NCBI GenBank assembly: GCA_018267055.1
Contig: JAFDZF010000124.1
Location: 1-47,605 of the forward strand
DNA: 47,605 nt
Direction: 5' to 3'
Source of the DNA: Bacteroidota bacterium
GTDB taxonomy: Bacteria > Bacteroidota > Bacteroidia > Flavobacteriales_F > PHOS-HE28
Below are positions 17,654 to 21,207 of the stretch, one piece after another. Position numbers and translations under genes: made by a program. Every line of letters starts with the position of its first letter. Position 1 is the first letter of the stretch. A model generated the notes under the pieces. That model ran no database searches, was not told where the DNA came from, and was given only the letters and a program-made list of their open reading frames with translations.

Positions 17654-17660
17654 TACTTTG
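17654..17660 (+). promoter_or_regulatory. candidate -7 promoter box (TACTTTG) for the arginine decarboxylase unit
   Basis: TTTACTTTGTTCC follows the corA terminator. The predicted start of transcription is near 17667, about 240 nt before the decarboxylase ATG, which leaves an unusually long leader for this gene-dense window. Confidence 0.6.
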
Positions 17661-17670
17661 TTCCTGCATC

Positions 17671-17769
17671 ATGGCCCGCAAGCGCTGCATCGGCATCTGT
17701 GACCAGACCTGGTCCGCCCTGCTCATCGCCGTCGGCGGCCCCTGTGGTGTTCCCCCCGCCTTCGTCTGA
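17671..17769 (+). CDS. candidate 32-codon leader peptide upstream of arginine decarboxylase
   Basis: An ATG starts about 4 nt after the predicted transcription start and reads MARKRCIGICDQTWSALL then IAVGGPCGVPPAFV, ending in TGA. It holds two arginine codons and a lysine in the first five codons, three cysteines, and a Pro-Pro pair three codons before its end. Its TGA overlaps the ATG of the next short frame (TGATG). Its size and position recall SpeFL, the ornithine-sensing leader peptide of enterobacterial speF, but I see no sequence similarity. High GC makes chance open frames common, so translation is not proved. Confidence 0.4.
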   Translation: MARKRCIGICDQTWSALLIAVGGPCGVPPAFV

Positions 17770-17909
17770 TGAACGCGCGCGTGCACATCGGGACCAGGCC
17801 GACCCTGATCGCCCACGCGCAACACCTCCCGCTCCTCCGGACGCACGCCCCCGCCCCGTTCCCCCTGAACGGACCGGGGGCGTCCGCTTTCCTTCCCACC
17901 GCCGCATGA
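17769..17909 (+). CDS. candidate 46-codon second leader ORF coupled to arginine decarboxylase
   Basis: The ATG overlaps the stop of the 32-codon frame and its own TGA overlaps the ATG of the decarboxylase (ATGA at 17906-17909). It reads MNARVHIGTRPTLIAHAQHL and ends SAFLPTAA, rich in Arg, His, Pro and Leu. The terminator-like hairpin at 17838-17886 lies inside it, so ribosomes translating this frame would disrupt the hairpin. That would make it a coupling device rather than a functional protein. A similar chance overlap occurs before the transketolase C-subunit, so caution is needed. Confidence 0.3.
   Translation: MNARVHIGTRPTLIAHAQHLPLLRTHAPAPFPLNGPGASAFLPTAA
17838..17896 (+). terminator. 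nested terminator-like hairpin (possible attenuator) in the decarboxylase leader
   Basis: Outer arms 17838-17853 and 17875-17886 pair over 12 positions (CGGAC/GTCCG and GCCCCCG/CGGGGGC blocks) with a 4-nt bulge GCAC on the 5' side. An inner stem CCGTT (17856-17860) / AACGG (17868-17872) caps it. The 3' tail GCTTTCCTT resembles the tails of two independent terminators in this window (21676 and the tRNA terminator). It ends 19 nt before the decarboxylase start, where an intrinsic terminator would switch the gene off. Confidence 0.5.
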
Positions 17910-19321
17910 AGACCCGCTACATCGACCTCATCGAGCAGACGTTCGACTTCCCCAAGGACGAATTCAAGTTCGATGACGGCCAGCTCACCTGGAACGACCT
18001 GCCGCTGATGGACCTCCTCCAGCGGCACGGCACCCCGCTGCGCATCACCTGGCTCCCCAAGATCGGTGAGAAGATCGATCAAGCCCGCGCCTCCTTCGCC
18101 AAGGCCTTCAAGGAGCATGACTACCGGGGCACCTACGAGTACTTCTACTGCACCAAGAGCAACCACTTCAGCTACGTGATCGAGCAGGTGCTGGCGAAGG
18201 GCGTGAGCCTGGAGACCAGCAGCGCCTACGACATCGAGATCGTGGAGCTGCTGATGGAGCGCGGGAAGCTCTCCCGCGGGGCCACCATCCTCTGCAACGG
18301 CTACAAGGACGACCGCTACATCCGCAACATCGGCCGCCTTGCCAACAGCGGCGTGCGCGTGATCCCCATCATCGACAACATGGGCGAGCTCGAGCAGCTG
18401 GACGAGGTGATCAAGGGGTCCTGCGACATCGGCATCCGCATCGCCGCCGAGGAGGCGCCCAAGTTCGAGTTCTACACCAGCCGCCTGGGCATCGGCTATA
18501 AGGACATCATCCCCTTCTACATGCGCAACGTGAGCAAGCAGCGCAAGTTCAAGCTGAAGCTCATGCACTTCTTCATCAACACGGGCATCAGCGACAGCGC
18601 CTACTACTGGAACGAGCTGGGCAAGTGCGTGAACGTGTACTGCGACCTGAAGAAGCTCTGCCCCACGCTGGACACGCTGGACATCGGCGGCGGCCTGCCG
18701 ATCAAGAACAGCCTGACCCACACCTTCGACGTGGATTACATGATCGGCGAGATCGTGGGCCGCATCAAGGACATCTGCGACGAGAACGACGTGGATGAGC
18801 CCAACATCCTCAGCGAGTTCGGCAGCTTCACCGTGAGCGACAGTGGCGCCACCTTCTTCAGCCTGCTCTACCAGAAGAAGCAGAACGAGAAGGAGCGCTG
18901 GAACATGATCGACGGCAGCTTCATGACCACCCTGCCCGACACCTGGGCCATCAACAAGCGCTTCATCATGCTGCCCATCAACAACTGGAACGACGAGTAC
19001 GAGCGCGTCTTCCTCGGCGGCATGACCTGCGACAGCGACGACTACTACAACAGCGAGCAGCACGTCAACGCCATCTACCTGCCCCGCTTCCGCGACGAAC
19101 GCAAGCAGTACATCGGCTTCTTCAACACCGGCGCCTACCAGGACACGCTCGGCGGCTTCGGCGGCATCCAGCACTGCCTGATCCCCAAGCCGAAGCACCT
19201 GCTGCTGGACCGGGCGGACGACGGCACCCTCACCGAGCGCGTCTTCGCTGAACAGCAGAGCGCCGAGCGGATGCTGCAACTGCTGGGCTACCTGCCCCAG
19301 GAGGAGCTGGTCCGCAAGTGA
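17906..19321 (+). CDS. arginine decarboxylase, fold-type III PLP enzyme
   Basis: A 471-residue enzyme of the group IV (ornithine/diaminopimelate/arginine decarboxylase) class that likely converts arginine to agmatine for polyamine synthesis. The frame is open upstream, but the N-terminus MKTRYIDLIEQTFDFP at 17906 is the conserved Bacteroidota start. The PLP lysine is K84 in YCTKSNHF, followed by SLETSSAYDIE. The phosphate-binding GGG is at 261-263 (DIGGGLPI) and the active-site cysteine is C375 (GMTCDSDD). GAYQDTLGGFGG follows near the end. It is shorter than E. coli SpeA (about 650) because it lacks the extra domains. It sits behind a long leader and starts a cluster with a deoxyhypusine-synthase-like enzyme. 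Arginine rather than another basic amino acid is inferred from family resemblance. Confidence 0.88.
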   Translation: MKTRYIDLIEQTFDFPKDEFKFDDGQLTWNDLPLMDLLQRHGTPLRITWLPKIGEKIDQARASFAKAFKEHDYRGTYEYFYCTKSNHFSYVIEQVLAKGVSLETSSAYDIEIVELLMERGKLSRGATILCNGYKDDRYIRNIGRLANSGVRVIPIIDNMGELEQLDEVIKGSCDIGIRIAAEEAPKFEFYTSRLGIGYKDIIPFYMRNVSKQRKFKLKLMHFFINTGISDSAYYWNELGKCVNVYCDLKKLCPTLDTLDIGGGLPIKNSLTHTFDVDYMIGEIVGRIKDICDENDVDEPNILSEFGSFTVSDSGATFFSLLYQKKQNEKERWNMIDGSFMTTLPDTWAINKRFIMLPINNWNDEYERVFLGGMTCDSDDYYNSEQHVNAIYLPRFRDERKQYIGFFNTGAYQDTLGGFGGIQHCLIPKPKHLLLDRADDGTLTERVFAEQQSAERMLQLLGYLPQEELVRK

Positions 19322-19331
19322 CACACCTCCC

Positions 19332-19700
19332 ATGCGCACGTTCTACGCCGGTTCCCACTGGTTCTGGGTCATCTCCCGGATCCTGTTCGTGGCCCTGTTC
19401 GTCATCAGCATCGCGCAGCTCGGGGCCGAAGGCGGCCTCCGGGGTGCGGACGCCCGGCTGGTGAACACGGTGATCGCGGTCGGCACGCTGGTGATCGCCG
19501 TGCTGGCCATCCTGGAGATGGCCCGCGCAAAGAAGCCGGTGTGGCTGCGCATCATCGGCGGCGTGTTCATGTCGCTCCTCGGCCTGGGCCTGTTGAGCCT
19601 CTTCTTCTTCGCCCAGGTGCGGAGCGGCCTGGAGATCGTGCTGGCCCTCTTCGTGCTGTGGATCCTGCTCGCGGGGCTGCGGAACCTCATCATGCCTTGA
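19332..19700 (+). CDS. small four-helix membrane protein of unknown function
   Basis: A 122-residue integral membrane protein with hydrophobic stretches near residues 10-30 (WVISRILFVALFVISIAQ), 42-62 (LVNTVIAVGTLVIAVLAILE), 70-92 (LRIIGGVFMSLLGLGLLSLF) and 98-118. No family motif is recognisable. It starts 10 nt after the arginine decarboxylase and its stop overlaps the next start (TGATG), so it is co-transcribed with the polyamine genes. A role in polyamine movement is possible from context only. Confidence 0.75.
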   Translation: MRTFYAGSHWFWVISRILFVALFVISIAQLGAEGGLRGADARLVNTVIAVGTLVIAVLAILEMARAKKPVWLRIIGGVFMSLLGLGLLSLFFFAQVRSGLEIVLALFVLWILLAGLRNLIMP

Positions 19701-20232: not shown

Positions 20233-21207
20233 ATGAGCAGCAGACCGATCTCCAGTTTCCTGGAGAAACACTATCTCCATTTCAACGCCGCCGCCCTGGT
20301 GGACGCCGCCAAGGGCTACAAGGTCCACAAGGCCGCCGGCAAGAAGATGCTGGTGAGCCTCGCCGGCGCGATGAGCACCGCCGAGCTGGGCAAGATCCTG
20401 GCCGAGATGATCCGCAAGGGCCAGATCGACATCATCAGCTGCACCGGCGCCAACCTGGAGGAGGACGTGATGAACCTGGTGGCCCACGACCACTATGAGC
20501 GCGTGCCCAACTACCGCGACCTCACCCCCGTACAGGAGCGCGACCTGCTGGACCGCGGCATGAACCGGGTGACCGACACCTGCATCCCCGAGCACGAGGC
20601 CTTCCGCCGCCTGGAGAAGCACGCCGTGGACCTCTGGAAAGCCGACCAGGCCAGCGGCAACCGCCGCTTCCCGCACCAGTACTTCTACGAGATGATCAAC
20701 TCGGGCGTGCTGAAGCAGTACTACCAGATCGATCCCAAGGACAGCTGGATGGTGGCCGCCGCCGAGCGCAACCTCCCCATCATCTGCCCGGGCTGGGAGG
20801 ACAGCACCCTGGGCAACATCTTCGCCGCGCACTGCCTGGTGGGCGACTGCGAGCCCCGCATCATGAAGAGCGGCATCGAGTACATGATGTGGCTGGCCGA
20901 ATGGTACACCGCCAACAGCGGCACCGACGGCATCGGCTTCTTCCAGATCGGGGGCGGCATCGCCGGCGACTTCCCCATCTGCGTGGTGCCCATGCTGCAC
21001 CAGGACCTCGAGCGCGAGAACATCCCCTTCTGGAGCTACTTCTGCCAGATCAGCGACAGCACCACCAGCTACGGCAGCTACAGCGGGGCCGTGCCCAACG
21101 AGAAGATCACCTGGGGGAAGCTCGACATCGACACCCCCAAGTTCATCATCGAAAGCGATGCTACTATTGTGGCGCCCCTGGTGTTCGCCTACATCCTCGA
21201 CATGTGA
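20233..21207 (+). CDS. deoxyhypusine synthase-like polyamine enzyme
   Basis: A 324-residue NAD-dependent enzyme of the deoxyhypusine synthase (DHS) superfamily. It keeps the N-terminal nucleotide-binding region (SLAGAMSTAELGK, SCTGANLEED) and the C-terminal active-site strip GSYSGAVPNEKITWGKL, in which K296 corresponds to the lysine that carries the aminobutyl imine intermediate. The GGGxxKH motif of eukaryotic and archaeal enzymes is replaced by GGGIAGDF at 240-247, so the general-base histidine is not at its usual place. Bacteria have no eIF5A, and bacterial DHS-like enzymes are known to make homospermidine from putrescine. Placement near arginine decarboxylase fits polyamine synthesis; the exact substrate (putrescine, agmatine or other) is open. 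Confidence 0.88.
   Translation: MSSRPISSFLEKHYLHFNAAALVDAAKGYKVHKAAGKKMLVSLAGAMSTAELGKILAEMIRKGQIDIISCTGANLEEDVMNLVAHDHYERVPNYRDLTPVQERDLLDRGMNRVTDTCIPEHEAFRRLEKHAVDLWKADQASGNRRFPHQYFYEMINSGVLKQYYQIDPKDSWMVAAAERNLPIICPGWEDSTLGNIFAAHCLVGDCEPRIMKSGIEYMMWLAEWYTANSGTDGIGFFQIGGGIAGDFPICVVPMLHQDLERENIPFWSYFCQISDSTTSYGSYSGAVPNEKITWGKLDIDTPKFIIESDATIVAPLVFAYILDM

Follow-up and report, generated by a model that had tools for sequence, protein, structure and literature searches.

Ribosome-arrest regulators of metabolism are known mainly from Proteobacteria, Firmicutes and eukaryotes, where the fungal arginine attenuator peptide, for example, is encoded by an upstream ORF of an arginine gene. In Salmonella, ribosomes located at the stop codon of the speFL/orf34 leader of speF destabilise a hairpin downstream of this stop (PMC6386406), and in TnaC(R23F) the penultimate Phe clashes with RF2 on the UGA codon (PMC8429421). 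The leading edge of a ribosome is found about 12 nt downstream of the codon (PMC4833913). Shine-Dalgarno sequences are largely ignored by the ribosomes of Bacteroidota (PMC6847099, PMC9976891), so the usual logic of unmasking such a sequence is not readily applicable in this phylum. A literature search of partial coverage retrieved no leader of the sort presented here for Bacteroidota. This leader is carried by a group of wastewater-type Flavobacteriales and appears to control the access of ribosomes to an enzyme gene. With a conserved peptide, a hairpin and a relay lying before a polyamine gene, it provides a test case for translational switches in Bacteroidota, and it would add a lineage, beside enterobacteria and eukaryotes, where a nascent peptide may gate polyamine synthesis.

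The features of the locus are collected in Table 1, in coordinates of the window, i.e. the whole stretch of 47,605 nucleotides that was analysed. The leader ORF lies upstream of a polyamine decarboxylase gene whose assignment to the arginine decarboxylases falls below the curated cut-offs: the nearest NCBIfam models are those of biosynthetic arginine decarboxylase, with scores under these cut-offs, and the closest solved relatives by sequence are also biosynthetic arginine decarboxylases. The genome additionally encodes arginase/agmatinase-family and agmatine-deiminase-family genes; together with the deoxyhypusine/homospermidine synthase-like gene downstream, these fit a synthesis of agmatine and polyamines. 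An ORF of 122 aa (19332-19700), lying between speA and that downstream gene, appears hydrophobic by eye and has no match in Pfam or NCBIfam.

Table 1. Leader elements and neighbouring genes of the speA-like decarboxylase (window coordinates)
Feature	Position	Strand	Remark
-7 promoter box TACTTTG, Bacteroidota-type	17654..17660	+	TAn(n)TTTG box located in 38 leaders
ORF1, leader peptide MARKRCIGICDQTWSALLIAVGGPCGVPPAFV-UGA, 32 codons	17671..17769	+	Conserved in 39/40 congeneric leaders
ORF1 termination box: Phe codon, last codon (Arg in relatives, Val in the window), UGA	17761..17769	+	
ORF2 start, TGATG overlap with the ORF1 stop	17769..17771	+	Overlap in 36/39
ORF2, bridging ORF, 46 codons, stop on the speA start (ATGA)	17769..17909	+	Open frame kept
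H1, conserved hairpin, foot 10 nt past the first base of the ORF1 stop	17777..17820	+	Based on folding z
H2, nested hairpin of the preliminary description	17839..17892 (about)	+	Strong in the window, unconserved
speA-like decarboxylase, 471 aa, presumed regulated gene	17906..19321	+	NCBIfam below cut-offs; Pfam PF02784
Deoxyhypusine/homospermidine synthase-like gene, downstream, polyamine context	20233..21207	+	PF01916; NCBIfam homospermidine biosynthesis protein below cut-off

For the genome of the window, 44 congeners were available for comparison. We took 40 distinct leaders upstream of the speA orthologues in the genus, with 15 leaders from further families in the class serving as outgroups. 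Those relatives that bear names are MAGs of Flavobacteriales and Bacteroidetes, and several isolate names suggest activated sludge. A selection by geometry only, requiring an ORF whose stop overlaps an ATG whose own ORF ends at speA, retained 32 of the 40 leaders, and 30 of the 32 ORF1s chosen in this manner have an F/Y-R end. Conversely, selection by the F/Y-R end alone retained 37/40 leaders, with 34 overlapping an ATG and 30 having an ORF2 that reaches speA. The remaining 7 of the 39 ORF1 stops were assigned by hand through the F-R motif. In this comparison with relatives, which the preliminary description had proposed, both ORFs are kept and the ORF1 peptide is selected, whereas the ORF2 peptide is unselected and the hairpin H2 is not conserved.

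The TACTTTG box is present where it had been reported, and the two chained ORFs retain the coordinates, codon counts and TGATG and ATGA overlaps first given for them and are evolutionarily maintained. The caution that high GC could generate such open frames by chance can be set aside, because the peptide end and the geometry both recur in about 37-39 of the 40 congeneric leaders, far beyond chance. A geometry-blind scan for ORFs of 20-60 codons ending in Phe/Tyr-Arg-UGA identified one in 37/40 leaders, in 0/40 antisense strands and in 0/15 outgroups, and exactly one is present in 36 leaders. Among the 39 leaders, the final positions of ORF1 are F (37/39), R (38/39) and UGA (39/39). The Phe codon alternates between TTC and TTT and the Arg codon between CGC, CGT and CGA, while the stop is always TGA, indicating that synonymous sites vary at this end and residues remain constant. 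A Pro-Pro pair had been pointed out near the end of ORF1, but what is conserved is Phe-Arg-stop (Phe-Val in the window), with (Pro/Ala)-Phe-Arg-UGA as the consensus on which our preferred explanation relies. The last codon in the window (17764-17766) is GTC (Val), which may have arisen in this lineage or be an error of assembly.

Selection on the peptide is also apparent from the substitution pattern, pN/pS of ORF1 being 0.05-0.6, whereas most shifted frames reach about 1 or more. Eleven genomes scattered over the gene tree have in common the core DQTWSALL(I/V); for the DQTWSALLI core, pS is 0.31 and pN 0.016 (pN/pS 0.05), and the shifted frames are devoid of such a synonymous excess. The ratio is 0.27 in one other clade, against 1.4 and 1.5 in shifted frames, and the contrast is weaker in the closest clade (0.48 against 0.71 and 4.35). 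Judging from these patterns, ORF1 is a real gene encoding a peptide under selection, and it combines a selected peptide with a C-terminus constrained at the stop, as in termination-arrest leaders. The peptide has no match in Pfam; it is present as a single copy per genome, always at speA, and a search of 395 genomes of the phylum with a DQTW profile gave no convincing match outside the leader. What nearly all lineages share of the peptide is confined to its two final residues. In the 38 leaders with a located TAn(n)TTTG box, ORF1 begins 5-18 nt after the box, and with the usual distance between -7 and +1 this spacing suggests that ORF1 is leaderless or nearly so.

The second ORF is linked to both of its neighbors by overlaps. 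The ORF1 UGA overlaps the ORF2 ATG in 36/39 leaders, either as CGY-UGAUG (28, including the GUC-UGAUG of the window) or as CGAUGA (8). These two forms are mutually exclusive and depend on the Arg codon (Fisher p 2.7e-6, kinship ignored), and the speA tree implies about ten switches between them. Going from one form to the other moves the ATG by three bases and leaves the reading frame unchanged. This frame is open up to the speA start in 33/39 leaders by a loose count and in 32/39 with a stop required within -12..+3, the other two frames giving 14 and 21 and shuffles 17. The locus therefore displays what is expected of translational coupling, namely a conserved stop-start overlap and a frame that leads to the gene. 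The length of ORF2 takes 24 distinct values, 16 of which equal 1 mod 3, the frame giving the ATGA overlap. Its pN/pS is 0.9-1.0 in long comparisons and 0.7 over the 24 opening codons in one group; values of about 1 imply that the frame is kept but not the peptide, and a functional ORF2 peptide was ruled out on this ground. A -1 frameshift from ORF1 into ORF2 was considered because H1 lies at a plausible spacing, and was discarded: there is no slippery heptamer at NTTCCGC-TGA, and the overlapping ATG, needless for frameshifting, is kept in 36/39 leaders. In three leaders (L011, L035 and L038) the ORF1 stop, about 147 nt before speA, reads TGACA or TGACG without an overlapping ATG. Two of these, L011 and L038, possess a third overlap (TGATG at about -124) through which an ORF extending to speA is re-entered. 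L029, the congener that diverges most, harbors in the last 130 nt before speA the succession ORF1', TGATG, a seven-codon ORF2', ATGA and speA.

Scanned position by position against shuffles, the leaders display a single sharp folding signal at +10, counted from the initial base of the ORF1 stop (mean z -1.87, negative in 37-38 of 39), and H1 is conserved across them in position and stability. It is backed by consensus folds in three groups, with some compensatory pairs in one of them and little in the others. Two features of H1 count against the explanation we prefer: its covariation is modest or not above that of shuffles, and the hairpin is largely within GC-rich sequence. Taken as a whole, the 291-nt leader folds in an ordinary way (z -0.71), and an Rfam search of the leader gave no match at gathering level and, with a relaxed threshold, only sub-threshold hits, mostly chance matches of microRNA type. 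The second hairpin, placed by the preliminary description at 17838-17886 and likened to a terminator, does exist in the window as a nested structure (H2, z -4.7) with a weak CTTTCCTT tail; the terminator role is not borne out. Folding z across the 39 leaders reveals no counterpart of H2 in most relatives, and a terminator-like stem with a U-rich tail is found, in weak form, in only 2/39. An intrinsic terminator or attenuator was rejected as a conserved element for these reasons.

We give a probability of about 0.6 to a cis-acting translational leader in which termination at ORF1 would be tuned and reinitiation would relay ribosomes from ORF1 to ORF2 and to speA. Ribosomes would enter at the near-leaderless ORF1 and reach ORF2 and then speA through the overlaps; their passage by termination-reinitiation is suggested by the UGA/AUG overlap together with the ORF2 frame open to the speA AUG. 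Through the Phe-Arg end and H1, release of the peptide would become slow or conditional, a behaviour known from TnaC and SpeFL. A ribosome on the ORF1 UGA would have its leading edge near the foot of H1, and this placement, with the selected Phe-Arg-UGA, suggests release at the UGA as the controlled step. In the least certain step, a metabolite of the polyamine pathway (a product polyamine or arginine) may strengthen the stall. The stalled ribosome would then cover the ORF2 start and cut the relay, and speA expression would fall, amounting to feedback repression. We favour such a feedback by the pathway product, the opposite sign being possible. Relay control, if true, would suit ribosomes that operate independently of Shine-Dalgarno sequences. 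More tentatively, and at somewhat less than even odds, these leaders may form a new family of metabolite-sensing termination-arrest peptides of Bacteroidota with a Phe-Arg-UGA end, gating a two-step reinitiation relay to speA for polyamine synthesis in place of a terminator or a masked Shine-Dalgarno sequence. Further observations count against the tuned leader: the N-terminal part of ORF1, which might hold the sensor, differs between clades and is preserved in some lineages only; the ORF1 of the window is the sole one of 39 without a final Arg; and in 7/39 leaders ORF2 ends away from speA or has no overlapping ATG.

The divergent L029 has neither the F-R end nor H1, which also weighs against tuned termination, and its retention of the chain favours a pure reinitiation relay without sensing, in which a near-leaderless ORF1 would recruit ribosomes and ORF2 would carry them to a speA start with a poor initiation context. 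The promoter box lying so close to ORF1 agrees with this, as does the C-rich and A-poor composition upstream of speA (A 0.15 against 0.33 in the outgroups), since A at -3 and -6 aids initiation in Flavobacterium (PMC6847099); moreover, leader-ORF reinitiation has been proposed across phyla, including Bacteroidetes (PMC4833913). However, a mere relay leaves unexplained the conserved Phe-Arg end, the very low pN/pS of the DQTWSALLI core and the fixed H1, and we regard it as rather unlikely. Transcription attenuation, in which the translation state of the leader would decide on an intrinsic or Rho-dependent terminator before speA, appears more doubtful still. It could draw on the strength of H2 in the window, on a C-rich leader (C/G 1.8) in a genome that encodes Rho, and on the use of Rho by the speF and tna leaders (PMC6386406, PMC8429421), but the scarcity of terminator-like stems among the relatives argues against it, and the C excess extends upstream of the leader (C/G 1.7). 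The Rho variant of this scheme is possible.

Selection on ORF1 at the peptide level would also fit a microprotein acting in trans, which we consider very improbable: apart from the Phe-Arg end the sequence is not common to all lineages, its N-terminal part varies by clade, and the position of ORF1, its overlap with ORF2 and its single copy at speA are fixed. It is equally hard to credit that charged tRNA is sensed through the Arg codons of ORF1 in an attenuation mechanism. The last codon is indeed Arg in 38/39 leaders and several N-terminal codons encode Arg, but no run of Arg codons is present and those other than the last are unconserved across lineages.

As a tuned translational leader, the locus would work like known termination-arrest or reinitiation leaders, a likeness of operation rather than a shown membership of any named family. 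The SDQTWSALL core of ORF1 (e.g. in L008) resembles the string S-D-x-x-W-x-A-L of the fungal arginine attenuator peptide, at a different distance from the stop; this likeness is very short and probably due to chance. The parallel first drawn with enterobacterial speFL proved apt in kind, the two ORFs here making up a conserved leader before the decarboxylase gene. As in the speFL/orf34 leader of speF, with its ornithine arrest peptide, the gene for a polyamine decarboxylase is preceded, close to the start of the transcript, by a short ORF that ends with a C-terminal Arg and a stop, and a hairpin lies just past this stop. The enzyme and phylum differ, and here the ORF1 stop overlaps a second ORF that extends to the gene; no sequence kinship with SpeFL is apparent from the Pfam search and the DQTW profile search. 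With TnaC, the tryptophan arrest peptide, ORF1 shares termination at UGA (RF2) and a selected C-terminus, and a penultimate Phe strengthens arrest in TnaC R23F, whereas the two have no sequence in common, and here arrest is a proposal and a Rho site would be hypothetical. Finally, the locus resembles the leader genes that raise expression through reinitiation, whose reported peak is in Bacteroidetes (PMC4833913), in having a leader ORF at a short distance and a probable reinitiation, but it differs from them by its two ORFs chained through stop-start overlaps, by selection on the first peptide alone and by a fixed hairpin.
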